Source of the DNA: Verrucomicrobiia bacterium
GTDB lineage: Bacteria; Verrucomicrobiota; Verrucomicrobiia; Verrucomicrobiales; Akkermansiaceae
Assembly: GCA_030430455.1 (NCBI GenBank)
Contig: JAUIJB010000003.1
Coordinates: forward strand, 1 to 64,000
Reading direction: 5' to 3'
DNA: 64,000 bases
Below are positions 10,859 through 25,809 of the stretch, one piece after another. Made by a program: the position numbers and the translations under genes. Below the pieces are notes generated by a model, which was given only the letters and a program-made list of their open reading frames with translations, ran no database searches and had not been told where the DNA came from. The stretch's first letter is position 1. Every line of letters begins with the position of its first letter.

Positions 10859-12265
10859 TCACTCCAGGCCCAGGTAGTCCCGTGCGTTGGCGTAGCAGAT
10901 GTTGCGGACCATCCCGCCGACGAGCTCGAAGTCCTTCGGCAGCGAGCCCGACTCCATGTCCCGACCGAGCAGGTTGCACAGCACGCGGCGGAAGTACTCG
11001 TGGCGCGGGTACGACATGAACGAGCGCGAGTCGGTGAGCATGCCGATGAAGCGCGACAGCAGGCCGAGGTTCGACAGCGCGTTCATCTGCCACTCCATCG
11101 CCTCCTTCTGGTCGAGGAACCACCAGCCGGATCCCAGCTGGATCTTCCCGGGGACGCTGCCGTCCTGGAAGTTGCCGAGCATGGTGGCGAAGGCGTAGTT
11201 GTCGGCCGGGTTGAGGTTGTAGAGCACCGTCTTGGGCAGCGCGTTCTCCTCGTCGAGGCGGTCGAGGAAGATCGCCAGGCGGTCGACCTGCGGCCAGTCG
11301 CCGATCGAGTCGAAGCCGGTGTCCGCCCCGAGCTTGCGGAACATCCGGCTGCTGTTGTTGCGCCGCGCGCCGAGGTGGAGCTGCATCGCCCAACCGCGCT
11401 CGGCATTCCAGCGCCCGACGTGCAGCATGATGAAGCTGGCGAACTGCTCCTTTTCCCGCGGGGTCGCGGCCTCGCCGCGGCGCGCCTTGTTGAAGATCTC
11501 GCGCGCCTCCGCCTCGCTGGGAAAGTCGGCGAAACAGCGCTCAATGCCGTGGTCCGAGGCCCGCCCGCCCAGCTCGTGGAAATAGTCGTGGCGCGCCTTG
11601 AGGGCGTCGAGCAGCTCGTCGAGCGTGCCGGCCGACTGGCCGGCGGCCGCCTCGAGCGTGCCGATCCACGCGTTCCAGGCCTCCGGCTGGTCGACATTGA
11701 GCGCCTTGTCGGGGCGGTAGGTCGGAATCACCCGCGTGGCGATGCCCGACTTGGCGATCTCGCGGTGGTGGGCGAGGTCGTCGGCCGGGTCGTCGGTCGT
11801 GCCCACCACCCGGACCTTGAACTTGTCGAGGATGCCGTGGGCAGTCAGCTCGTCGCCGGCGAGTTGCTCGTTCGCCCGCTCCCAGATCGACTCCGCGGTC
11901 GACTCGTCGAGCAGCTCTTCGATGCCGAAGTAGCGCTTCAGCTCGAGGTGGGTCCAGTGGTAGAGCGGGTTGCGCAGCGTGTGCGGGACCGTCCGCGCCC
12001 AGGCGAGGAACTTCTCCTTCGACGTGGCGTCGCCGGTGCAGAACTCCTCCGCCACCCCGTTCGAGCGCATCGCGCGCCACTTGTAGTGGTCGCCCTCGAG
12101 CCAGATCTCGAAGAGGTCGCGGAAGCGGCGGTTCGAGGCGACGTCCTGCGGCGGCAGGTGGCAGTGGTAGTCGAGGATCGGCTCGTCCTCGGCGGACTCG
12201 TGGTAGAGCCGCACGGCCGCCGGAGTTTCGAGGAGGAAGTCGTCGTGAATGAAGGGAGCGCTCAT
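10859..12265 (-). CDS. uxaC: Uronate isomerase
   Basis: 468 residues, the usual UxaC length. It interconverts D-galacturonate with tagaturonate and D-glucuronate with fructuronate, the first cytoplasmic step after pectin breakdown. The amidohydrolase-fold metal motif HxH is at His34/His36 (DYHCHLPP), and the family's RDLFEIWLEGDHYKWRAMR and DNKF-like GMLTDSRSF/PRHEYFRRVLCN motifs are all present. It is the last gene of the dctP-dctQ-dctM-uxaC set, 31 bp behind dctM, pairing uronate uptake with its first catabolic step. Genes for tagaturonate/fructuronate reductases are not in the window. Confidence 0.95.
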   Translation of the reverse strand: MSAPFIHDDFLLETPAAVRLYHESAEDEPILDYHCHLPPQDVASNRRFRDLFEIWLEGDHYKWRAMRSNGVAEEFCTGDATSKEKFLAWARTVPHTLRNPLYHWTHLELKRYFGIEELLDESTAESIWERANEQLAGDELTAHGILDKFKVRVVGTTDDPADDLAHHREIAKSGIATRVIPTYRPDKALNVDQPEAWNAWIGTLEAAAGQSAGTLDELLDALKARHDYFHELGGRASDHGIERCFADFPSEAEAREIFNKARRGEAATPREKEQFASFIMLHVGRWNAERGWAMQLHLGARRNNSSRMFRKLGADTGFDSIGDWPQVDRLAIFLDRLDEENALPKTVLYNLNPADNYAFATMLGNFQDGSVPGKIQLGSGWWFLDQKEAMEWQMNALSNLGLLSRFIGMLTDSRSFMSYPRHEYFRRVLCNLLGRDMESGSLPKDFELVGGMVRNICYANARDYLGLE

Positions 12266-12296
12266 GGAAGATCGGGTGGGAATCGGTCCCGGCGCA

Positions 12297-13589
12297 TCAG
12301 TCCTTGCCGAACAGCTCGGGAAGCCACAGCGAGAGGGCCGGGACGTAGGTGATCACCAGCAGCGCCAGGATCATCGCGATGAAGAACGGCAGCAGCGGCG
12401 GGGTCACCTTGGCGATCGTCGTCTTGCCGACGCCGCAGCCAAGGAACAGGCAGGTGCCCACCGGCGGCGTGCACAGGCCGATGCAGAGGTTGGCGATCAT
12501 GACGATGCCGAACTGCAGCTCGCTCATGCCCAGCTCGGTGACCACCGGCAGGAAGATCGGGGTGAAGATCAGCACCGCCGGGGTCATGTCCATGAAGGTA
12601 CCCACGGCGAGCAGCAGGAGGTTGATCGCCAGCAGGATCACGATCGGGTTCTCCGACAGGGCCAGCAGCGAGGCGCTGACCTGCTGCGGGACGTTCTCGG
12701 TGGTCAGCAGCCAGGACATCCCCGAGCTGGCACCGATCAGCAGCATCACCACCGCGGTGGTGATCGCCCCCTTGAGCAGGATGCCGGGCAGGTCGGCGAT
12801 GCGGACCTCGCGGTAGAAGATCACCGCCAGGATGAAGGAGTAGAGCACTGCGATCGCCGCGGCCTCGGTGGCGGTGAAGATGCCGCCGAGGATGCCGCCG
12901 ATCACGATGATCACCAGCAGCAGGCTGGGCACGGCGCGGACGAAGGTGTTGCCCAGCACGGCCAGCGGGACCGGCGGCGACTTCTCCCACTTGTCGGCGC
13001 GGGCGCGCAGGAAGCAGACCGCCATCAGGAACAGCCCCATGACGATCCCGGGGATGATGCCGGCGAGGAACAGTCCGATGATCGACACGCTGCCGGCCGC
13101 CACCGCGTAGACGATCATGATGTTGCTCGGCGGGATGATCAGGCCGGTGGTCGCGGAGGTCACCGTCAGGGCGACGTTGAAGTCGCGCGGGTAGCCCTTG
13201 CGGTTCATCTCGGGGATCATGAAGCCGCCGACCGACGAGACCGCCGCCGCCGCCGACCCGGAGATCGACCCGAACAGCATGCAGGTCATCGTGTTGACGT
13301 AGGTCAGCCCGCCGGGAAAGCGGCCGACGCAGGCGGCGGCGAAGTCGATCAGCCGGCGCGCGATCCCCCCCTGCCCCATCAGCAGTCCGGAGAGGATGAA
13401 GAAGGGGATCGCCAGCAGCGTGAAGCTGTCGATGCCGTTGGCCATCTTCAGCGCCACCGTATAGATGGCATCGCCGCCGGTGGCGAAGACGCAGAGGAAG
13501 GTGGCGATGGCGATCGCCACGGCGATCGGCACGTCGACGAACAGCATCAGCACGAAGCTGATCACCAGCAACCAGACCGTCGGGCTCAC
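12297..13589 (-). CDS. dctM: TRAP transporter large permease DctM
   Basis: 430 residues, about 12 hydrophobic segments, typical DctM length. Family regions include GLLMGQGGIARRLIDFA, GSISGSAAAAVSSVGG, and the C-terminal GLCTPPVGTCLFLGCG. It is the Na+-coupled channel subunit of a tripartite periplasmic transporter in the inner membrane. It overlaps dctQ by 4 bp, so the two are translated together. With UxaC downstream the likely cargo is a uronate or unsaturated uronate. Confidence 0.92.
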   Translation of the reverse strand: MSPTVWLLVISFVLMLFVDVPIAVAIAIATFLCVFATGGDAIYTVALKMANGIDSFTLLAIPFFILSGLLMGQGGIARRLIDFAAACVGRFPGGLTYVNTMTCMLFGSISGSAAAAVSSVGGFMIPEMNRKGYPRDFNVALTVTSATTGLIIPPSNIMIVYAVAAGSVSIIGLFLAGIIPGIVMGLFLMAVCFLRARADKWEKSPPVPLAVLGNTFVRAVPSLLLVIIVIGGILGGIFTATEAAAIAVLYSFILAVIFYREVRIADLPGILLKGAITTAVVMLLIGASSGMSWLLTTENVPQQVSASLLALSENPIVILLAINLLLLAVGTFMDMTPAVLIFTPIFLPVVTELGMSELQFGIVMIANLCIGLCTPPVGTCLFLGCGVGKTTIAKVTPPLLPFFIAMILALLVITYVPALSLWLPELFGKD

Positions 13590-14185
13590 GCTTCACCCCC
13601 TTCCTTGGGAAGCTCGGCGGCGCCGGCGGAACCGGGGGCCTCGGCTTCGGCGATGGGCTCTGCGTCGTCCTTTTCTCGAATCACGTCCAACATTTGCGCG
13701 AGGGTGAAGATCACGGTGAAGACGCCGCTGACCGGAACCGCGAGGTAGATCCAGCCCTTGGGGATTCCCAGCGTCGGGGTCGTCTGCTTGAGCTCGAGGG
13801 TGCGGCTGACCAGCTGCCAGCCACCGATGATCAGCGCCGCGATGGCGAACCCGAGGACCACGGCCAGCGCGGTGAGCCGGAGGACCTTGCGCCCGGCGGG
13901 CTCGAACTTGCCGACGAAGTAGTCGACGCCGAGGTGGGCCTTCTTCTCGAAGGCAAGGCAGGCGCCGAGCAGGCCGACCCAGATCATCAGGTAGCGGGCC
14001 AGCTCCTCGGTCCAGCTGCTCGGGTTGTCGATCATCCCCCACTTGGCGAGCATGCGCGAGAGCACGCCCCACAGGACGTCGATCACGAGGGCGCCCATGG
14101 CGACGATCAGGGCGAGCTCGAGCAGCCGCACGAGGAGTCCGATCACCGGGTGGTTCCGGGCGGTGCTGGTGGCGTCGTGGTCCAT
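13586..14185 (-). CDS. dctQ: TRAP transporter small permease DctQ
   Basis: 199 residues with four hydrophobic segments (for example LIVAMGALVIDVLWGVL and LMIWVGLLGACLAF), the DctQ pattern including EELARYLMIWVGLLGA and FEKKAHLGVDYF. A charged C-terminal tail (REKDDAEPIAEAEAPG) extends beyond the last helix. DctQ bridges the periplasmic binding protein and DctM. It begins 6 bp after dctP and overlaps dctM by 4 bp. Confidence 0.9.
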   Translation of the reverse strand: MDHDATSTARNHPVIGLLVRLLELALIVAMGALVIDVLWGVLSRMLAKWGMIDNPSSWTEELARYLMIWVGLLGACLAFEKKAHLGVDYFVGKFEPAGRKVLRLTALAVVLGFAIAALIIGGWQLVSRTLELKQTTPTLGIPKGWIYLAVPVSGVFTVIFTLAQMLDVIREKDDAEPIAEAEAPGSAGAAELPKEGGEA

Positions 14186-14191
14186 GGCGGT

Positions 14192-15208
14192 TCAGCGGAT
14201 CGCGCGGATCTTCTCGACCAGGTCGCCCACCGGCGTGCCCACGTGCTCGTCGTACATCGGCGCCACCTTGTCCATGAAGGGCTGCTTGTCGGGCTCGTAG
14301 ACCTCGACGCCGAGCTCCTTCACCGCCTCGAGCGCCTCCGTGCTCTTCTCCGCCCACAGTTCACGCTGGAACACGCTGGACTCGTCCGCCGCCTGCTGCA
14401 GCCACTCCTGCTCGCGGGGCGAGAGCTCGTCCCAGATCGGCGCGCTGATCAGAAGCATGTCCGGCAGGACGACGTGGCCGTCGAGGCTGAAGTACTTGCA
14501 GGTCTCGTAGTGCTTGTTGGAGTAGAAGCTCGGCGGGTTGTTCTCGGCGCCGTCGACGATTCCCTGCGCCAGCGCCGAGTAGAGCTCGCCCCAGGAGATC
14601 GGCGTCGGCGAGCCGCCCATCATCTCGACCATCTTGATCGCCATCGGGCTGTTCATCACGCGGATCTTGAGCCCCTGGAGGTCGTCGGGCGTCTTGATCT
14701 GGCGGTCCTTGGTGTAGAAGTTGCGGCTACCGGCATCGTAGTAGCACAAGCCGTACATGTTGCGCTCCTTGCCCTTGTGGAGCAGGCCGCGGCCGGTCTC
14801 GCTGTCGGCGAAGGCCCAGAAGTGGTCGGAGTCGCGGAACAGGTAGGGCAGGCCGAAGAGCTGCATCTCCGGGATGAAGGCCTCCATCGGCCCGGTCGAG
14901 GTCTTGGTCATCGCCAGCACGCCGTTCTGCAGCTGCTCGATGCACTCGGTCTCGCCGCCAAGCACGGCGCTGGGGTAGATCTCGACGGTCATCGCGCCGC
15001 CGGAGATCTCCTCGAGGCGCTCCTTGAGGTGGACCATCCCGAGGTGCACCGGGTGCTGCGGGTCGAGGGCGTGGGCGAGCTTGAGGACCTTGGCCTGCTG
15101 GCCGCCGCCGTCGGCGGGACCGCGGCGCATGACCAGCGCGAAGCCGCCGGTGGCGAGCAGGGCGCCGACCAGGAGTCCGGCGAGGAAGAGCGAAATGGAC
15201 CGAGTCAT
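14192..15208 (-). CDS. dctP: TRAP substrate-binding protein DctP
   Basis: 338 residues with an N-terminal membrane anchor or signal segment (SLFLAGLLVGALLATGGFALV). Mature-domain motifs are those of DctP: LAHALDPQHPVHLGMVHLKERL, YPSAVLGGETECIEQLQNG, and LKIRVMNSPMAIKMVEMMGG with the Arg that binds a substrate carboxylate, then ISWGELYSALAQGIVDGAEN. The binding Arg agrees with a uronate cargo. ATG 15208 is taken because the signal segment starts directly after it. First gene of the TRAP/uxaC set; a 161-bp gap separates it from the GNAT gene. Confidence 0.92.
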   Translation of the reverse strand: MTRSISLFLAGLLVGALLATGGFALVMRRGPADGGGQQAKVLKLAHALDPQHPVHLGMVHLKERLEEISGGAMTVEIYPSAVLGGETECIEQLQNGVLAMTKTSTGPMEAFIPEMQLFGLPYLFRDSDHFWAFADSETGRGLLHKGKERNMYGLCYYDAGSRNFYTKDRQIKTPDDLQGLKIRVMNSPMAIKMVEMMGGSPTPISWGELYSALAQGIVDGAENNPPSFYSNKHYETCKYFSLDGHVVLPDMLLISAPIWDELSPREQEWLQQAADESSVFQRELWAEKSTEALEAVKELGVEVYEPDKQPFMDKVAPMYDEHVGTPVGDLVEKIRAIR

Positions 15209-15362
15209 GGATTGCAGAGCTGGGCCAAGGGAACATGGCGCCCAAACCGCGAACAAGCCGATATACCGTCTTCACAGCCGGCGGATACCCCTTTTGGGGG
15301 AGTACTCGACGAGCCTGCCGGCCGCTGGATGATCACGGCCTTGCCTGCATCCCTGCGGGACT

Positions 15363-15985: not shown

Positions 15986-17473
15986 TCAGTCGAGCAGCTT
16001 GACGAAGCGCGAGTAGGCCTCGTCCCACGGCGCCCGCTCCCCGGGCTCGAAGGTCTTGAGCGGCTCGGATTCGCGCAGCAGCGCGCGGCCCGCGGCGAGC
16101 GACTCGAGCCCGCCGCTGGCGATCATCTGCAGCAGCACGTTGCCGTAGGCGGTCGCCTCGTAGGGCCCGACCACCACCGGCACGCCGAGGCTGTCGGCGA
16201 TGGCCTGGTCGAGCGCCTCGTTCTGCCCGCCCCCGCCGATGACGTGGAGCAGGTCGAACTCCCGGTCGACCAGTCGCTGGAGGGTCTCGAAGACCCAGCG
16301 GTACTTCAGCGCGAGGCTGTCGGAGATGATCCTCAGCACCGTTCCCGGGTCCTGCGGCACCGGCTGCCCGCTGCGCCAGCAGAAGCCACGCACGAGTTCC
16401 GGCATGTCGCCGCGGCCGCCGAAGTCGGCGTGGTCGGGGTCGATGAAGGCGGTGAAGGGTTTCGCGGCGGCGGACATTTCCGCCATCTCGCCGAAGGAAT
16501 ACTCGTCGCCCTGCTCGGCCCAGATCCGCCGGCACTCCTGGATCAGGTAGAGCCCGTTGATGTTCTTGAGGAAGCGGATCGTGTCGAACACGCCGCCCTC
16601 GTTGGTGAAGTTCGCCGCGAGCACCTCGTCGTTGACGACCGGGTCCGCCAGTTCGGCGCCCAGCAGCGACCACGAGCCCGAGCTCAGGTAGGCGAAGCGC
16701 GTGCCCGGCTCGGCGGGGACGGCGGCGACCGCCGAGGCGGTGTCGTGGCTGCCCACCGCGATGACCTTGGTCGCCGGGTCGAGGCCGGTCTCCTCCGCCA
16801 CCGCGGGAAGCAGCGTGCCCAGCACCGTGCCGGGGTCGACCAGCGGCGGCGCGATCGACGGGTCGACCCCGATCGCCTCGAAAAGGGCGGGGTCCCAGTC
16901 GCCACGCGGACTCAACAGCTGGGTCGTGCTCGCGTTGGTCCGCTCGCACACCGCCTCGCCGCTGAGCAGGAGGTTGAGGTAGTCCGGCATCAGCAGGAAG
17001 CGCGACGCGCGGGCGAGCAGCTCCGGCCGGTCGCGCTGCTCGGCGTGAAGCTGGTAGAGGGTGTTGAGCGGCAGGAACTGGATGCCGGTGCGGCGGAAGA
17101 CCTCCTCCTTCGGCACCTTGGCGAAGACCTCCTCCATCGCGTTCCCGGTCCGCGGGTCGCGGTAGTGGGTCGCCGGGGCGAGGCGCTCGTGCCTGGCGTC
17201 GAGGAGCACGTAGTCGACCCCCCAGGTGTCGACGCCGATCGACCGGATCCGCTCGCTGCCGAACTGCCCGGCCGCCTGCTCAAGGCCGGCGCGGATCTCC
17301 TTCCACAGGTCGTCGAGCCCCCACTGCAGCCCGCCGTCGACCTCGATCGCGGGGTTCGGGAAACGGTTGACCACCTCGAGCCGGAGGCGACCGCCCTCGT
17401 TGATGCCGGCGATCACCCGGCCGCTGCCGGCGCCGAGGTCGACGGCGAGGTGGATGCTGGTGTCGGAATCCAT
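15986..17473 (-). CDS. rhaB: Rhamnulokinase
   Basis: About 495 residues, the usual RhaB length, FGGY kinase fold. It phosphorylates L-rhamnulose to rhamnulose-1-phosphate. The phosphate-1 motif is at the N-terminus (HLAVDLGAGSGRVIAG), GVDTWGVDYVLLD follows, and the C-terminal domain has the adenosine motif LLHVIGGGGQNEAL. GSHDTASAVAAVP and YLSSGSWSLLG are typical of rhamnulokinases. It follows mqo by 25 bp. ATG 17473 gives the family start; ATG 17491 adds six residues. No rhamnulose-1-phosphate aldolase is found in the window. Confidence 0.92.
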   Translation of the reverse strand: MDSDTSIHLAVDLGAGSGRVIAGINEGGRLRLEVVNRFPNPAIEVDGGLQWGLDDLWKEIRAGLEQAAGQFGSERIRSIGVDTWGVDYVLLDARHERLAPATHYRDPRTGNAMEEVFAKVPKEEVFRRTGIQFLPLNTLYQLHAEQRDRPELLARASRFLLMPDYLNLLLSGEAVCERTNASTTQLLSPRGDWDPALFEAIGVDPSIAPPLVDPGTVLGTLLPAVAEETGLDPATKVIAVGSHDTASAVAAVPAEPGTRFAYLSSGSWSLLGAELADPVVNDEVLAANFTNEGGVFDTIRFLKNINGLYLIQECRRIWAEQGDEYSFGEMAEMSAAAKPFTAFIDPDHADFGGRGDMPELVRGFCWRSGQPVPQDPGTVLRIISDSLALKYRWVFETLQRLVDREFDLLHVIGGGGQNEALDQAIADSLGVPVVVGPYEATAYGNVLLQMIASGGLESLAAGRALLRESEPLKTFEPGERAPWDEAYSRFVKLLD

Positions 17474-17498
17474 CGGTCGCGCTTGGAACATTCGGGGG

Positions 17499-18983
17499 TC
17501 AGACCAGCTGCAGGGCCGACTGGGCGGCGGTGTGCAACTCCTCGTAGCGCCCGCGGTTCTCCGCCGCCTTGAGGTCCTCGTCCCAGTTCGGGATCATCTC
17601 CTTCATCCGCGCCTGGCTCTCGGGCGACTCGAGCAAGCCGGGCAGGCAGCGCTGGATGCACTCGAGCATCACCTTGGTCGAGATCGAGGCGCCGGGCGAG
17701 GCGCCGAGCAGGGCCGAGATCGTGCGGTCGGCGCTGGTCAGCACCTCGGTGCCGTAGTGGACGATGCCGGGGGCCTCGCCGGGGACCTTCTTGATCGCCT
17801 GCACGCGGATGCCGGCATCGATCACCTTCCAGTCCTCCTCGCGCGCCGCGGGGTAGAAATTGTAGAGCTCCTTCATCCGCTTGTCCTTCGACTGCAGCCC
17901 CTGCTCGACGAGGTACTTGACCAGGTCGAGGTTGTGGATGCCGACCTGCATCAGCGAGGCGATGTTGTGGGGACGGATCGAGGTCGGCAGGTCGAGGTGG
18001 CTGCCGCCGACGTGGAGGAACTTGCCGGTCCAGGCCGCGTAGGGGCCGAAGAGGAGGTATTTCTTTCCGTCGATGATCCGGGTGTCGAGGTGCGGCACGG
18101 CCATGGTCGGCGCGGCGCCGAGGGCCTGGCCGTAGACCTTGGCGGTGTGCTTCTCGACCACCTCCGGGTTGTCGGTGATCATCCACTGGCCGCCGATCGG
18201 GAAGCCGCCGTAGCCCCTGGCCTCGGGGATGCCCGACTTCTGCAGCAGCGGCAGCGAGCCGCCGCCGGCGCCGATAAAGACGAAGCCGGCCTCGACGTCG
18301 CGGCGCTCGCCGCTCTGCTCGTCGCGCACGGTCACCCGCCAGCCCTTGCCGCTGCGGTTGAGGTCGACGACCCGGGTGCCGAAGTGCGTGGCGCAGTCCG
18401 GCTGGGCGTCGAGCCACTCGCAGTAGTTGCGCGAGATCTCGCCGAAGTTGACGTCGGTGCCGCCCATCATGCGGGTCGCCGCGACCGGCTGGTCCTCGTC
18501 GCGCCCCTCGACCAGCAGCGGCGCCCACGAGCGGATCGTGTCGCGGTCGGTGCTGTGCTCCATCGGCGCGAAGAAGTGGTGCGCCTTGAGCCCGTCGAAG
18601 CGCGCCTGCAGGTAGGGGATCTGCTCGCGGGTGTGGACCAGCGAGATGTGCGGGACGGGATTGATGTAGTCGCGGGTCGACTTGAGCAGGCCGTTGCGCG
18701 CGCCCCACGCCCAGAACTGCAGCGAGTACTCGAACTCCTCGAAGACCGAGATGGCCTTGGACACGTCGACCGTGCCGTCGGCCTCCATCTCGGGCGTGTA
18801 CGACAGCTCGCAGATCCCGGCGTGGCCGGTGCCCGCGTTGTTCCAGCCCTTGGAGGCCTCCTGGGCGGGTTCGTCGGCGACCTCGAAGAGCTGGATCTCG
18901 AGGTCGGGTTTCAGCGACTTGAGCATCGCCCCCAGCGTGGAGGACATGATGCCCGAGCCGATCAGGACAACGTCGGTTTTCAT
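17499..18983 (-). CDS. mqo: Malate:quinone oxidoreductase
   Basis: 494 residues, the family's normal length. An FAD-binding Rossmann start (DVVLIGSGIMSSTLGAML) is followed by NNAGTGHAGICELSYTP, a hallmark of Mqo, and by GAGGGSLPLLQKSGIPE and FGPYAAWTGKFL. It oxidises malate to oxaloacetate and passes electrons to quinone at the membrane. Its place between a permease and rhamnulokinase is unusual; it may support the flux of three-carbon products into the TCA cycle, or simply be co-regulated. ATG 18983 is chosen because the FAD motif begins at once. Confidence 0.93.
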   Translation of the reverse strand: MKTDVVLIGSGIMSSTLGAMLKSLKPDLEIQLFEVADEPAQEASKGWNNAGTGHAGICELSYTPEMEADGTVDVSKAISVFEEFEYSLQFWAWGARNGLLKSTRDYINPVPHISLVHTREQIPYLQARFDGLKAHHFFAPMEHSTDRDTIRSWAPLLVEGRDEDQPVAATRMMGGTDVNFGEISRNYCEWLDAQPDCATHFGTRVVDLNRSGKGWRVTVRDEQSGERRDVEAGFVFIGAGGGSLPLLQKSGIPEARGYGGFPIGGQWMITDNPEVVEKHTAKVYGQALGAAPTMAVPHLDTRIIDGKKYLLFGPYAAWTGKFLHVGGSHLDLPTSIRPHNIASLMQVGIHNLDLVKYLVEQGLQSKDKRMKELYNFYPAAREEDWKVIDAGIRVQAIKKVPGEAPGIVHYGTEVLTSADRTISALLGASPGASISTKVMLECIQRCLPGLLESPESQARMKEMIPNWDEDLKAAENRGRYEELHTAAQSALQLV

Positions 18984-19006: not shown

Positions 19007-19207
19007 TCATATCTCGACCTGGGAATCGGTCGGCTGGAGCTTCCGGGCGGAGAGCCAGGGAGTGCCGAACAGAAACCAGATCACCATACCGGCAAGCATC
19101 ACGAGCTTGTTGCGATCGACGTCGATGACGCCGGTGAAGACGAGGATGGGACCGAGGGCGGTGAGCAGGAGACCGACGAGGCCGCCAATTTTGAAGATGG
19201 CATTCAT
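19007..19207 (-). CDS. 66-residue two-helix membrane protein
   Basis: A tiny protein with two hydrophobic segments (GLVGLLLTALGPILVFTGVI and KLVMLAGMVIWFLFGTPWL) and a polar C-terminus. It starts only 3 bp after the NCS1 permease stop and ends 23 bp before mqo, so it belongs to the same transcript. The tight coupling suggests a partner of the permease, perhaps a stabilising small subunit, but no family function is known to me. Confidence 0.75.
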   Translation of the reverse strand: MNAIFKIGGLVGLLLTALGPILVFTGVIDVDRNKLVMLAGMVIWFLFGTPWLSARKLQPTDSQVEI

Positions 19208-19210
19208 GGG

Positions 19211-20635
19211 TCAGGCGTTCTTTTGGATGAGTTTGCTGAGGATGATGTAGAGCACGCCGCAGGCGATCCAGCAGGGGATCACGAGGTAGGCGGCGAAGAC
19301 GCTCTCGACCTCGGGCAGCTCCTGACCGGCGATCAACTCGTGGATCGGCTTGCGGAAGATGAGATAGAGGCCGACGAGCACCGGAAGCAGCCACGCAAGC
19401 AACACGGCGGGATTGAAGGCGGAGCGGGTCGAGTGGGCATACTCGTCGCGCAGGCCGAGCTTCTTCATCAGCCAGAAGTCGACGAAGATCACCGCGCCCA
19501 TCGGGCCGAGCACCGTTCCGTAGGTCCCGACGAAACCGAGCAGCTTGCCGGAGAGCGTCGGGAAGGCTCCTGCAATGGTCGCGATGATCCCGGCGACGAG
19601 GGTCATCGCGACCCGCTTGGACCCCGGGAACATGCCCTGGAAGGCGAGCCCGGCGCGGTAGATCGTCGGGTTGGCGGTGGTCCAGCCGGCGATGATCACG
19701 CAGACGATGCCGGTCCAGCCGATCGAGCGCCAGGCGAGCATGCCGGGATTGGCGGAGGTGTCCTGGTGGAGCTTGATCTGGGCGGCCAGCAGCAGCGCGG
19801 CGCAGATCCAGGCGACGTAATGACCGAGGAACATTCCGATCGCCGGCGCCCAGCCCGAGGACTTGTCGCGGGCGAAGCGGAAGATCGACAGGTCGGCCAT
19901 GCCGAAGTGCATCGCGCCGTTGCAGAGCCAGCCGAAGATCACGATCTTCCAGAAGCCGAAGTCATCGGCGCCGTCCTTCTCCTGCACGAACTTCACGGCA
20001 TCGTCCCAGGTAAAGGGCGTGCCGGCGCCCATCTGGGCGTAGGAAACGAGGCCGCAGGCGCAGAACACGATGATCATCCACGGCGCGGCGATGTTCGCAA
20101 CACGGGCGACCATTTCATAACCACGGCAGGCGATCGCGGCGATGACGGCGCCGACGGCCAGCACGATCGCGGTGAAGGCCGGCGAGCTGAGTTCATACCA
20201 GTTTTCCGGCACCTCGAAAGTCACGTCGAAGGGAACGCCGACGGCCGAGGCCGAGACGGTGACCATCGCGCCGGCGAGGAAGCAGAACAGCAGGCCGTTG
20301 ACGAAGTTGTAGAGCTTGACCGCGCCGCCGCCGGCGATGCGCTCGAGCTGGTAGTAGAGCGTGTAGCGCTTGCTCATCGCGATCGGCGTCACGAGGAAGC
20401 GCCAGGAGAGGGTCGCGAGGATGTTGCCGAGCAGCAGGCCGAGGATCAGGTCCTGGATGCTCGCGCCGGCCGCGAGGAACAGCGGGCCGATCATGAACTC
20501 GGTGCCCGCGGTGTGCTCGCCGGCATACATGCCCCAGAATTTTCCGGGACCCTTCAGGGCGGAGGCGGGCACGGGCTGGCGCTCGAACTCGTCTCCGGCT
20601 TGGGCGACCTGCTCGGCCGGGTTGTCGTTGCTCAT
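19211..20635 (-). CDS. NCS1-type (purine-cytosine permease-like) transporter
   Basis: 474 residues and about 12 hydrophobic segments. The family pattern is visible in FWGMYAGEHTAGTEFMIGPL, then SKRYTLYYQLERI, and FWKIVIFGWLCNGAMHFGMADLSIFRFARD. NCS1 proteins are known for nucleobases, allantoin, hydantoins and thiamine. Here the gene lies directly between rhamnose isomerase and the mqo-rhaB genes, and no other rhamnose permease is in the operon, so a sugar or related cargo is an inference worth testing. Starts 69 bp after rhaI. Confidence 0.8.
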   Translation of the reverse strand: MSNDNPAEQVAQAGDEFERQPVPASALKGPGKFWGMYAGEHTAGTEFMIGPLFLAAGASIQDLILGLLLGNILATLSWRFLVTPIAMSKRYTLYYQLERIAGGGAVKLYNFVNGLLFCFLAGAMVTVSASAVGVPFDVTFEVPENWYELSSPAFTAIVLAVGAVIAAIACRGYEMVARVANIAAPWMIIVFCACGLVSYAQMGAGTPFTWDDAVKFVQEKDGADDFGFWKIVIFGWLCNGAMHFGMADLSIFRFARDKSSGWAPAIGMFLGHYVAWICAALLLAAQIKLHQDTSANPGMLAWRSIGWTGIVCVIIAGWTTANPTIYRAGLAFQGMFPGSKRVAMTLVAGIIATIAGAFPTLSGKLLGFVGTYGTVLGPMGAVIFVDFWLMKKLGLRDEYAHSTRSAFNPAVLLAWLLPVLVGLYLIFRKPIHELIAGQELPEVESVFAAYLVIPCWIACGVLYIILSKLIQKNA

Positions 20636-20704: not shown

Positions 20705-21904
20705 TCATGCGTAGCTGGCGGCCCCGTCGAGGCCCAGCTCCTTGCGGCGCTTGGCGCGGTCGGCGGCGGCGGCGGCGGCGTAGCCCGACTCGCGGTGGGC
20801 GGCCAGCGGGTCGGCGGCGAGCCCCTTCGACTCGCGCCACTCGCCGATCGCGGCGCGGACGTCGGCCTGGAAGGCCTCCTGCAGCAGCGCCTCGGCGTCA
20901 ACGATCTCGCCGGCCTCGCGGTGCCTGGCGAGCCGGTCGAAGTCGACCAGCGAGGCCTTGGCCCACAGCTCCTGCGCGCGGGTGACCGTCTGGATCATCG
21001 CCTCGACCTTCGGCTTCAGGTTGTGCGACTGGTCGACCATGTACTCGATCGCCGGGTAGTCGCCGCCCTTGTCGTGGGCGTAGCTGTGGATCTCGAAGAA
21101 GATCCGGAAGATCTGGTAGGGGTCGATCGAGGCCAGCGTCAGGTCGTCGTCGGCGTAGCGCCGGTCGTTGAGGTGGAAGCCACCGAGCATCTCCTCGTCG
21201 AGCAGGTAGGCGACGATCTGCTCGATGTTCTGGCCCTGGTAGTGGTGGCCGGTGTCGACCAACACCTTGGCCTGCGGGCCCATCTTCTTCGAGTGGACGT
21301 ACGACATGCCCCAGTCGGCGAGGTCGGTGTGGTAAAAGGCCGGCTCGAAGGGCTTGTACTCGACCAGGAAAACCTGCTCGGCGGAGAGCTTGTTGTGGAA
21401 CTCACGCAGGCAGCCCTCGAGGCGCTGCTTGCGGGCGCGGATGGAGTCCTGGCCCGGGTAGTTGGTGCCGTCGGCCAGCCACAGGGTGACCACCCGGCTG
21501 GCGACCTGTTGGCCGAGCACGATCGACTCCTCGACATGCTTGCGCGCCGCCGCCCGCACTTCGGCATCCGGGTGGCACAGGCTGCCGAGCTTGTATTCCT
21601 GGTCCTGGAACAGGTTCGGGTTGATCGACCCGATGCGCACCCCCTTGGCCGCCGCCTTTGCCGCGACCTCCTTGGGGTCCTCGTCCGGCTTGAAGTCCCA
21701 CAACACGTGAACCGCCACCTGCGGGCAGCAGCCGGTCAGTTGGTTGACGTGGCCGGCGTCGGCCAGCTTGTCGTCGAGGTCGATCGCCGCGCCGTCCTGG
21801 AGGAACTTGCCGAAGCGGGTCCCCGTGTCGGCGAAACCCCAAGAGGGAAGCTCGATTTCAAATCGGTCCAGGGCCCGGTGGATGCGCTCGGTGGCAGTGC
21901 TCAT
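20705..21904 (-). CDS. rhaI: L-rhamnose isomerase (RhaI-type sugar isomerase)
   Basis: 399 residues, TIM-barrel sugar isomerase of the RhaI kind. It converts L-rhamnose to L-rhamnulose, the substrate of RhaB encoded in the same operon. Metal- and substrate-site stretches include VFLVEYKPFEPAFYHTDLADWG (metal Glu and His), KVLVDTGHHYQGQNIEQIV and GGFHLNDRRYADDDLT with the Asp-rich site. ATG 21904 is followed by the family start (TERIHRALDRFEIELPSWGF). It is the first gene of the ten-gene minus-strand run and diverges from a LacI-family regulator across a palindrome. Confidence 0.92.
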   Translation of the reverse strand: MSTATERIHRALDRFEIELPSWGFADTGTRFGKFLQDGAAIDLDDKLADAGHVNQLTGCCPQVAVHVLWDFKPDEDPKEVAAKAAAKGVRIGSINPNLFQDQEYKLGSLCHPDAEVRAAARKHVEESIVLGQQVASRVVTLWLADGTNYPGQDSIRARKQRLEGCLREFHNKLSAEQVFLVEYKPFEPAFYHTDLADWGMSYVHSKKMGPQAKVLVDTGHHYQGQNIEQIVAYLLDEEMLGGFHLNDRRYADDDLTLASIDPYQIFRIFFEIHSYAHDKGGDYPAIEYMVDQSHNLKPKVEAMIQTVTRAQELWAKASLVDFDRLARHREAGEIVDAEALLQEAFQADVRAAIGEWRESKGLAADPLAAHRESGYAAAAAADRAKRRKELGLDGAASYA

Positions 21905-22002: not shown

Positions 22003-22016
22003 TGACATCGGTGTCA
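22003..22016. promoter_or_regulatory. Candidate LacI-family operator between rhaI and the regulator
   Basis: TGACATCGGTGTCA has 6 of 7 symmetric pairs and a central CG, as in operators of LacI-family proteins; flanking A/T runs extend the symmetry (AAAA left, TTTT right, offset by one base). It lies 99 bp before the rhaI start and 97 bp before the regulator start, so one regulator could act on both. I found no second exact copy near the other promoters in the window. Confidence 0.6.
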
Positions 22017-22112
22017 ATTTTGATTGAAACAGAGTGAGACAGCGGCAGTTTGCTGTTTGAATTTCCGCTTTGGAGCGAGCCCGGACTGCTGCCGTGGCGT
22101 CCCTGGAAAACC

Positions 22113-23117
22113 ATGGCCACCATTTATGAGATCGCTGAGAAAGCGGGAGTGTCGCCGAAGACGGCGGCGCGGATCCTGGCGGGTGAGTCGAAGCGCTCGA
22201 AGCACCATGAGCGGGTGCTCGAGTGGGCCCGCAAGCTTGGCTACGTGCGCAACGTCAGCGCGGCGAACCTGCGTTCGAAGCGAACCCACCTGATCGGCCT
22301 GCTGGTCCCCTTCGTCGACAACCCCTACTACACCCAGATCATCCAGGCCTTCCACGACACCCTGGGTGACCGCGGTTTCCGGGTCCTGCTGGCCTGTTCC
22401 TTCGGCCAGTCCGAGGAGATCCTCTCGGCCCTCGACCTGTTCCGCAGCTACGGGGTCGACGGCATCCTGATCAATGGCAGCGAGGGCGAGTTCCCGAAGC
22501 TTGCCAGCGAGCGGCTCGACCAGTTCCGCGAGGAGAAGCGCGCGGTCATCCTGCTGGGCCGCAACACCGAGGATCACGGGCTCGACCAGGCCGACGTGGC
22601 AAATGCCGAGGGCATCGCGAGCATGGTCGATCACCTGGTCGGGCGCGGCCATGAACGGCTTGGCTTCATCGGCGGGCGGCCGACCAACGGGGCCTTCCAG
22701 GCCCGCCACGAGGGCTTCCTCCGCGGACTCGGGCAGCACGGGCTCGAGCGGCGGGAAGAGTGGTCCAGCTGGGGGTCGGCGACGCCGGAGGATGCCGGCC
22801 GCCGGGCGCTGGAGATGCTCGCCGCCGAGCCGCGCCCGAGCGCCTTGGTCTGCGGCAACGACCTGATGGCCCTCGGGGTCCTCAAGGCCTGCCGCGAGGC
22901 CGGCATGGAGGTGCCGGGCGAGGTCGCGGTGACGGGATTCGACGACATCGAGGCGGCCTGCCTGATGGTCCCCGGCCTCACGACCTTGCGCCAGCCTTTC
23001 AACCGCCTGTCGCGGGAGTGCGCGGCCCTGCTCGAGCGACGCATCCGCGAGACCTCGCCGGAGCCGCCGACCCGCCTGGTGTTCGACACCGAACTGGTGG
23101 TCCGCGGCTCGAGCTGA
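22113..23117 (+). CDS. LacI-family transcriptional regulator
   Basis: 334 residues. The HTH (IYEIAEKAGVSPKTAARILAG) opens the protein, followed by hinge region NVSAANLRSKRTHLIGLLVP and a periplasmic-binding-like ligand domain with VDGILING, GFIGGRPTNGAFQAR and ALVCGNDLMALGVLKA. It lies divergent from rhaI, so the likely inducer is rhamnose, rhamnulose or a related product. It may act as a repressor at the palindrome 22003-22016. ATG 22113 places the HTH at the first residues; an upstream frame start is unneeded. A GCGCT-CGCA-AGCGC hairpin follows the stop at 23118. Confidence 0.9.
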   Translation: MATIYEIAEKAGVSPKTAARILAGESKRSKHHERVLEWARKLGYVRNVSAANLRSKRTHLIGLLVPFVDNPYYTQIIQAFHDTLGDRGFRVLLACSFGQSEEILSALDLFRSYGVDGILINGSEGEFPKLASERLDQFREEKRAVILLGRNTEDHGLDQADVANAEGIASMVDHLVGRGHERLGFIGGRPTNGAFQARHEGFLRGLGQHGLERREEWSSWGSATPEDAGRRALEMLAAEPRPSALVCGNDLMALGVLKACREAGMEVPGEVAVTGFDDIEAACLMVPGLTTLRQPFNRLSRECAALLERRIRETSPEPPTRLVFDTELVVRGSS

Positions 23118-23361: not shown

Positions 23362-25809
23362 ATGACCAGCCGCTTTCACCCGGGGCTCGCGACCCTCCTC
23401 CTCGCCGCCCTCGCCGCCGCGGCGCCGGTCCGCATCGACATCGACTGCTCGAAGCCGGACACCCCGCTCAGCCCGCACCTCTACGGCTTGTTCTTCGAGG
23501 ACATCAATTTCGCTGCCGACGGCGGGCTCTACGCCGAGCTCGTCCAGAACCGCTCGTTCGAGTACTTCCCGGTGCGGGGCAACGACCCGATCGGCCGCCA
23601 GTACCACCCGCTCCATGCCTGGACCAAGGTCGAGGAGGGCCGGGCGCGGGTCGAAATGAAGGTCGCCGGCCAGTCGCCCCTCAACCCCAGCAACCCCCAC
23701 TACCTCCGGCTGCAGTTCTTCCAGACCGGCGAGGAGGCCGGCGGGGCGGCCGGCGTCGCCAACGGCGGCTACGACGGCATCCGCCTCGACGAGGGCGCCG
23801 GCTACCGCGTCTCGCTCCACGCCCGCTTCAGCGAGTGGACCGGCGAGCGCGAGCTGCGCGTCGCCCTCGAGCTCGAGGACGGCCGGGTGTGCGGCGAGAC
23901 CACCCTCGGCCCGGCGGCCGAGGGATGGACCCGGCTCGAGGGCCGCCTCGAGTCCTCCGCAACCACCGGCGGGGGCGAGCAGGCGCGCCTGGTGGTCACC
24001 ACGACGGGCACGGGAAGGCTCGACCTCGACGTGGTCTCGCTGTTTCCCGAGGACACCCACGGCGGCCGGCCCAACGGGCTGCGGCCGGACCTCGTCGCCG
24101 CGCTGGCCGAGCTGAACCCGAAGTTCCTGCGCTTCCCGGGCGGCTGCATCGTCCACGGCAGCGGCCTCGACAATGCCTACCGCTGGAAGGACAGCGTGGG
24201 CGAGGTCGCCGCGCGCAAGCCCAACTGGAACCGCTGGGGCTACCACCAGACCTACGGCCTCGGCTACTACGAGTATTTCCTGCTCTGCGAGGACCTCGGC
24301 GCCACCCCGCTGCCGGTGGTCCCGGTCGGCGTCTCTTGCGGCTTCAACGAGCCCTACCAGGTGGTGCCGATGGACGAGCTCGGCGAGTGGATCGACGACG
24401 CCCTCGACCTGATCGAGTTCGCCAACGGCCCGGCCGACAGCGAATGGGGCGGCCTGCGGGCGTCGATGGGTCACCCCGAGCCCTTCGGCCTCGAATACCT
24501 CTGCCTCGGCAACGAGGAGCACGACCGCGCCGAGATGCGCGAGCGCTTCCCGCACTTCGTCCGGGCGATCCGCGAGGCCCACCCGGAGATCAGGCTCATC
24601 GGCACCTCGGGCCTCGGCCCGGGCACCCCGCTCTACGACCTGATGGCCGAGCTCGACGTCCACAGCACCGACGAGCACTACTACGAGGACCCCGAGTGGT
24701 TCATCGCCAACCAGAACCGCTTCGACGACTTCGACCGCGACGGTCCGAAGATCTTCGTCGGCGAGTACGCCTCGCGCGGCAATACCCTCTTCAATGCCGT
24801 CGCCGAGGCGGCCTTCCTCACCGGGGTCGAGCGCAACGGCGACCTGGTCGACATGACCTGCTACGCCCCGCTGCTGGCCAACGTCCGCCACGCGCAGTGG
24901 AACCCGGACCTGATCTACTTCGACAAGCGCCGCGTCGTGCGCACCCCGAACTACCACGTCCAGAAGCTCTTCGCGACGCACAAGGGGGACGCCTACCTCG
25001 CCAACCGGGTGACGCGTCCAGCGAGCGACCGGCTGGAGACGATCTCCGGCCGGGTCGGCATCGGCAGCTGGAGGACCGCGATCGAGGTCGAGGACCTGAA
25101 GGTCAACGGCCAAGAACTCGACCCGGCGGGCTGGGAGGTGATCGCCGGCGACTTCGCGGTCGAGGACGGCCGCTACGTCCAGCGCGACCCCTCCGAGACC
25201 CCGGCCGAGAGCCTCGGCCGGGCGAAGCATGCGGGCGAGGAGGTGACCTACACCCTGCGCGCCCGCAAGACCACGGGCGAGGAGGGCTTCCTGGTCATCT
25301 TCGGCGGCGGCGACGGGCGCCGCTACTGGTGGAACGTCGGCGGCTGGGGCAACTCCCGCCACGCCCTGCAGGTCACCGAGGGCAACCAGCGCAAGGTCCT
25401 CACCGAGAAGCGCGGCCGGGTGCGCCGGGACCGCTGGCACGAGCTGCGGGTCGAGCTCGGCCCCGGGCGGATCCGCTGCCTGCTCAACGGCGAGCTGGTC
25501 CACGACCACCACATCCCCCACCCCGGCCTCAGCGTCTCGCCGACCCTCGACCGCGCGACCGGCGACATCCTCGTCAAGCTCGTCAACCCGACCGATCAGC
25601 GCATCGACACGCGAATCCGGCTGGACCACGCGGGGAAGCTCAAGCCGGAGGCCGAGCTGGTCGAGCTGAGCGGCGAGCGCGACGCGCTGAACACCCTCGA
25701 GGCCCCCGACCGGGTGCGGCCCGAGACCCGCACGATCCGGGTGGCCGGGGAGTTCGATCACCTCGTCCCGCCGATGGCGGTGCAGGTCCTGCGGATCCGC
25801 CGCGAGTGA
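23362..25809 (+). CDS. Secreted GH51 alpha-L-arabinofuranosidase
   Basis: 815 residues with a signal peptide (LATLLLAALAAAAPV). The GH51 barrel carries acid/base Glu385 (CLGNEEHD) and nucleophile Glu468 (FVGEYASR). HLYGLFFEDINFAADGGLYAELVQNRSFEY is the classical family start; its first part is at residues 38-50. A jelly-roll-like insert follows (GYDGIRLDEGAGYRVSL), and the last ~250 residues hold an extra LamG/concanavalin-like module (WRTAIEVEDLKVNG to HELRVELGPGRIRCLLNG). It removes arabinose side chains of pectic arabinan or arabinoxylan. First of three co-directional secreted genes. Confidence 0.92.
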   Translation: MTSRFHPGLATLLLAALAAAAPVRIDIDCSKPDTPLSPHLYGLFFEDINFAADGGLYAELVQNRSFEYFPVRGNDPIGRQYHPLHAWTKVEEGRARVEMKVAGQSPLNPSNPHYLRLQFFQTGEEAGGAAGVANGGYDGIRLDEGAGYRVSLHARFSEWTGERELRVALELEDGRVCGETTLGPAAEGWTRLEGRLESSATTGGGEQARLVVTTTGTGRLDLDVVSLFPEDTHGGRPNGLRPDLVAALAELNPKFLRFPGGCIVHGSGLDNAYRWKDSVGEVAARKPNWNRWGYHQTYGLGYYEYFLLCEDLGATPLPVVPVGVSCGFNEPYQVVPMDELGEWIDDALDLIEFANGPADSEWGGLRASMGHPEPFGLEYLCLGNEEHDRAEMRERFPHFVRAIREAHPEIRLIGTSGLGPGTPLYDLMAELDVHSTDEHYYEDPEWFIANQNRFDDFDRDGPKIFVGEYASRGNTLFNAVAEAAFLTGVERNGDLVDMTCYAPLLANVRHAQWNPDLIYFDKRRVVRTPNYHVQKLFATHKGDAYLANRVTRPASDRLETISGRVGIGSWRTAIEVEDLKVNGQELDPAGWEVIAGDFAVEDGRYVQRDPSETPAESLGRAKHAGEEVTYTLRARKTTGEEGFLVIFGGGDGRRYWWNVGGWGNSRHALQVTEGNQRKVLTEKRGRVRRDRWHELRVELGPGRIRCLLNGELVHDHHIPHPGLSVSPTLDRATGDILVKLVNPTDQRIDTRIRLDHAGKLKPEAELVELSGERDALNTLEAPDRVRPETRTIRVAGEFDHLVPPMAVQVLRIRRE

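Follow-up and report, generated by a model that had tools for sequence, protein, structure and literature searches.

The window analysed here (64,000 nucleotides of a Verrucomicrobiia genome) carries on its minus strand a run of five genes that encode, in order, an RhaI-type L-rhamnose isomerase (20705–21904; TIGR02635, E 1.2e-147), a permease of 474 aa (19211–20635), a two-helix membrane protein of 66 aa (19007–19207), a malate:quinone oxidoreductase (Mqo)-family protein (17499–18983; PF06039, E 2.7e-196) and the rhamnulokinase RhaB (15986–17491; TIGR02627, E 9.6e-137). The rhaI and mqo-family genes are each the sole copy in the genome, and the scores of RhaI and RhaB (492 and 456 bits) lie under the respective model cut-offs of 531 and 528 bits. 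Divergent from this run is a LacI-family regulator gene (22113–23117, plus strand; PF00356 and PF13377), the start of which was placed at 22113 to coincide with that of the LacI domain (the ORF as listed starts at 22050). The ORFs, coordinates, strand and gene identities given for this run in the initial annotation are all correct. Between rhaI and the LacI-family gene lies a palindrome, TGACATCGGTGTCA (22003–22016), that is present as a single copy in the window when at most one mismatch is allowed (0.01 expected) and is likely to be the operator of the divergent regulator; a conserved LacI operator of this kind was looked for in the related loci and not found. Downstream of rhaB and on the same strand are the TRAP-transporter genes dctP and dctQ together with the glucuronate isomerase gene uxaC (10859–15256), and the combination of these with the rhamnose genes looks like a locus for the use of rhamnogalacturonan or pectin. 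An alpha-L-arabinofuranosidase gene (23362–25809, plus strand) adjoins the LacI regulator and fits a plant cell-wall sugar locus.

The permease has no match to the NCS1 family of Pfam (PF02133), either in the search of its own genome or by hmmscan at E up to 1. The profile of its family also misses PF02133, Pfam as a whole gives no useful match, and the RhaT profile PF06379 does not match the permease. The sole family match of note is the CodB cytosine permease model NF008241 (NCBIfam), reached at a sub-threshold 46.1 bits against the curated cut-off of 326 bits, so that automatic annotation would at best say cytosine permease. PDB sequences were matched neither by the permease (phmmer) nor by the permease-family profile (hmmsearch), and the link to CodB was revealed only by fold comparison and profile–profile comparison. 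The AlphaFold2 model of the permease, built from 44 relatives (pLDDT 88.4, pTM 0.87), has as its best solved match the CodB cytosine:Na+ symporter (PDB 7qoa; Z 34.3, 394 residues at 3.5 Å), followed by the hydantoin transporter Mhp1 at Z 30.1 (Z 27–30 over PDB 2jln and 4d1a). Both matches span ∼395 residues of the 12-helix LeuT fold, and their scores exceed those of all other families listed, among them choline, iodide and sugar symporters that share this superfold. In agreement with the fold, six CodB-like proteins are matched at 98.8% probability (E 1e-16) in profile–profile comparison. A quick tree with long branches, in which 104 family rows were set against CodB, AllW and eight NCS1 proteins from Verrucomicrobiota, splits the family from this NCS1 side with an SH-aLRT of 100. 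A position within a cytosine or allantoin clade would speak against a sugar cargo; the family is instead a separate branch. Assignment as a cytosine or allantoin carrier was rejected on the Pfam result and on this branch. Judged from the model and the sequence comparisons, a fair name for the permease is that of an NCS1-like family that falls outside NCS1 as Pfam defines it, and not of a firm NCS1 member; the earlier label ‘NCS1-type’ agrees with the fold but not with PF02133, and ‘NCS1-like’ fits better.

Residue matches to CodB, taken from alignments at about 20% identity, point to a retained ion site and an altered substrate pocket. In CodB, Na+ is held by TM1 carbonyls and by Asn275, Thr278 and Thr279 of TM8, whereas cytosine sits between Trp108 and Phe204 (PMC9379551). 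The TM8 motif of the permease (residues 318–327, WTTANPTIYR; 19655–19684, minus strand) brings T319 and T320, which are invariant over 44 aligned rows, onto the Na2-site threonines 278 and 279 of CodB, and Y326 onto CodB Tyr285. Because of these matches, Na+ coupling of the permease is likely. The TM3 position of the aromatic sandwich is predominantly Trp in NCS1 carriers (PMC9379551), whereas the 21 family rows aligned have no Trp there. The TM1-break motif (residues 39–46, GEHTAGTE; 20498–20521, minus strand) is nearly invariant in the family, and the family alignment reveals a further motif in TM6 (residues 236–243, WLCNGAMH; 19907–19930, minus strand). The polar residues E40, H41 and E46 of the former and N239 and H243 of the latter are nearly invariant and are also kept in a sister branch (see below). 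Substrate contacts from TM1 are used by other Na+-coupled LeuT-fold symporters and are missing from CodB and Mhp1 (PMC9379551). The permease, ∼18% identical to CodB and ∼13% to Mhp1, thus combines the sodium-site residues of its closest solved fold with polar TM1/TM6 residues that CodB does not have; it differs from CodB further in its two-helix partner and in a rhamnose context in place of codA. The same paper (PMC9379551) reports neither a small partner nor a link to sugars for Mhp1.

The 66-aa protein follows the permease at a distance of 3 bp from the permease stop codon to its own ATG (TGA CCC ATG). Its homologues measure about 53–68 aa and share a W-F...P-W motif and a pair of hydrophobic helices. 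One lies 3′ of the permease at almost all loci of the family, and a further set of 32 loci has it in 30 (E about 1e-12 or less), whereas none was found downstream of ordinary NCS1 genes in 20 loci. In three loci (L069, L070 and L072) the permease and small protein are one protein of 530–534 aa, and L115 holds a probable fourth such natural fusion. The model of a natural fusion (pLDDT 86.5, pTM 0.79) shows hairpin helices at 476–499 and 505–530, and its permease portion, too, has CodB as a match (Z 36.6). As separate small proteins aligned with full permeases scattered, the two genes of in-frame loci were joined by reading across the stop codon (tables 4 and 6) and entered in the alignment for this model as paired rows, an alignment device that makes no claim on translation. 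The 3-bp gap had been taken to indicate a complex. It is weak evidence alone, given that elsewhere in the family the two genes may overlap or lie as much as about 170 bp apart, and it is the natural fusions that favour the idea. We propose that the small protein is a dedicated subunit of the permease, and from the fusions we infer that the two bind physically. In three loci (L064, L065 and L077) the permease is kept among rhamnose genes with no detectable small partner, as might be expected if the small protein were a separate factor (e.g. in assembly or regulation) and not a stable subunit; this is nonetheless unlikely, as the fused forms (at least three contigs, with L115 a probable fourth) and the fused hairpin of the sister branch both argue for a permanent association. 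The supposed small proteins of those three loci (cluster c33) are hydrophilic and were discarded.

The sister branch comprises seven loci (L117–L123) whose proteins are ∼32–35% identical, measure 571–611 aa (L123 being longer) and end in a C-terminal hairpin. The match of this tail to the small protein is weak at the profile level (hhalign E 1.5e-5, probability 57%; hmmsearch E 0.002). Representative operons (L117 and L118) encode a PfkB kinase and an enzyme of the mannitol-dehydrogenase family, the L121 operon encodes paired zinc dehydrogenases, and the operons lie near LacI-family genes. These neighbours suggest that the sister branch consists of polyol importers and belongs to a wider carbohydrate branch. 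In its broadest form, the proposal is of an NCS1-like branch of 12+2-helix Na+ importers for carbohydrates in Verrucomicrobiota and Planctomycetota, with the hairpin as a dedicated subunit, either split or fused, with a pocket refashioned to take polyhydroxy substrates, and with cargo divided between rhamnose and mannitol- or arabinitol-type polyols; we regard this generalization as evenly balanced between true and false.

Gene context bears most directly on the cargo. A scan of 84,980 species genomes gave 63 relatives, 42–84% identical by best segment and nearly all from Planctomycetota and Verrucomicrobiota, and the addition of loci taken from whole genomes, that of the window and related ones, makes a set of 70 family loci. 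With identities assigned by curated models, a rhamnose gene lies within 5 kb in 65 of the 70, and in three of the remaining five the contig extends only a little way to one side. Rhamnose isomerases of two families are present in 61 loci (52 RhaA, 9 RhaI), and the set also includes 17 RhaB, 14 aldolase/dehydrogenase and 14 rhamnosidase genes. Permeases that are 87% and 83% identical to that of the window (L015 and L016) have RhaA as neighbour, and not RhaI, which implies that the pathway is constant and not one neighbour protein. In a control with the same flanks for both groups, a rhamnose gene was found within 1.5 kb of 0 of 20 ordinary NCS1 (PF02133) loci as against 12 of 12 family loci. 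As the pattern scan tends to pick up close relatives, the family was sampled again, with less bias, by profile search of 288 phylum genomes, and here 15 of 27 family loci (L090–L116) are linked to rhamnose genes (L104 through GH106, L102 through an adjoining rhamnosidase). The other 12 have no rhamnose gene nearby, and for this reason some family members may have a cargo other than rhamnose. Several of the unlinked cases (G067, G120 and G172) have RhaT beside rhaA instead, which fits two interchangeable carriers and likewise suggests that the unlinked members may serve other substrates. RhaT holds the position beside rhaA in no fewer than 10 other genomes, and at most one genome shows both RhaT and the permease there. 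Counted from the printed search tables, a rhamnose isomerase is present in 28 of 28 permease genomes versus 186 of 288 overall (Fisher p 3e-6, uncorrected for kinship). The window's genome holds a second copy of the pair (C56, 38% identical), followed by a GH78 alpha-L-rhamnosidase. Taken together, the gene context strongly supports rhamnose as the cargo. The initial annotation proposed to check its importer reading by co-occurrence with rhaI; the co-occurrence with rhamnose isomerases is strong, and both context and tree support that reading; we infer that the cargo is free L-rhamnose.

That the pair would import a rhamnose-related compound in place of free L-rhamnose (short rhamnosides, another 6-deoxyhexose or L-lyxose) is quite improbable. 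Rhamnosidases adjoin the paralogue in the window's genome and no fewer than 13 other loci, and E. coli RhaT is annotated as a lyxose carrier too; however, the steadiest neighbour is an isomerase, which acts on the free monosaccharide, and the size and fold of the permease point to small molecules, the usual cargo of such carriers. The window's genome does encode a RhaT homologue (C52:7415–8428), 32% identical to E. coli RhaT, and loss of the permease might for that reason not abolish growth of this organism on rhamnose. The earlier statement that the run contains no known rhamnose carrier holds for the five operon genes but is qualified by the TRAP genes after rhaB and by this homologue elsewhere. 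The separate cluster in which the homologue lies (L151; C52, 4750–9664, minus strand) encodes an SDR, an amidohydrolase-2, an FAA-hydrolase and a CoA-transferase III; it resembles a non-phosphorylated deoxysugar pathway, possibly the second route for deoxysugars in the same genome. Entry of rhamnose through RhaT or the adjacent TRAP system, with the permease moving another solute of the pathway (e.g. lactate, lactaldehyde or propanediol) or still a nucleobase, would draw on the presence of the RhaT homologue, on dctP and dctQ adjoining rhaB and on the bases carried by the nearest known folds, but is very improbable given that the RhaT gene belongs to another cluster, the TRAP genes adjoin uxaC and so point to hexuronates, the permease lacks the tryptophan typical of base carriers, and the family is rhamnose-linked both with and without the mqo-family gene.

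The mqo-family gene itself adjoins RhaB in four further rhamnose loci (L063, L064, L066 and L077), where its products are 76–78% identical. The Mqo family includes an L-lactate:quinone oxidoreductase model, and since rhamnose breakdown gives L-lactaldehyde and lactate, the protein may be a lactate enzyme of this type (L-lactate:quinone oxidoreductase) and not a malate enzyme. The bifunctional rhamnulose-1-phosphate aldolase/dehydrogenase that relatives carry within the same operon was not found in the 90.9% complete genome, in which single-family searches directed at this aldolase type returned only SDR matches.

The proposed importer differs from the rhamnose carriers with which it was compared. 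A survey of rhamnose carriers lists three families, none of them NCS1-like, and apart from RhaT, rhamnose uptake has been proposed or shown for RhaY (MFS) and RhaFGHJ/RhaSTPQ (ABC) (PMC3870299), from all of which the permease is distinct in transporter family. The L-rhamnose:H+ symporter RhaT (DMT superfamily) occupies the equivalent place beside rhaA in other genomes of the phylum and has the same proposed job, but its family (PF06379) is unrelated. In working principle, the closest comparison is with SGLT1 and SGLT2 of the SSS family (Z 21–22 versus the model), which are LeuT-fold Na+/sugar symporters with a small membrane partner, MAP17. The comparison is one of function only, as the SGLTs belong to a different LeuT-fold family and the partner here has two helices, whereas MAP17 has one.

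We consider it probable that the permease and the 66-aa protein form an L-rhamnose importer, LeuT-fold and NCS1-like, Na+-driven and of 12+2 helices. The permease would be a secondary importer that has shifted from nucleobase-type substrates to L-rhamnose, operating by alternating access and probably driven by Na+ through the Na2 site between TM1 and TM8. With the base-holding aromatic sandwich of NCS1 carriers lost, the sugar would be held by the polar residues at the TM1 and TM6 breaks, the two-helix protein would complete the complex as its dedicated subunit, and RhaI and RhaB, encoded in the same operon, would receive the imported rhamnose. No earlier proposal of an NCS1-like rhamnose carrier was found in the open-access literature searched, including that on Planctomycetes and Verrucomicrobia. 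The natural occurrence of split and fused forms would, if the pair works as proposed, make the family a compact system for the role of small membrane subunits in LeuT-fold symporters. If the assignment is true, a fold group whose known cargo is bases, hydantoins, allantoin and vitamins would gain sugars as well, and the missing transport step of rhamnose use would be filled for many Planctomycetota and Verrucomicrobiota, phyla noted for the degradation of plant and algal polysaccharides.
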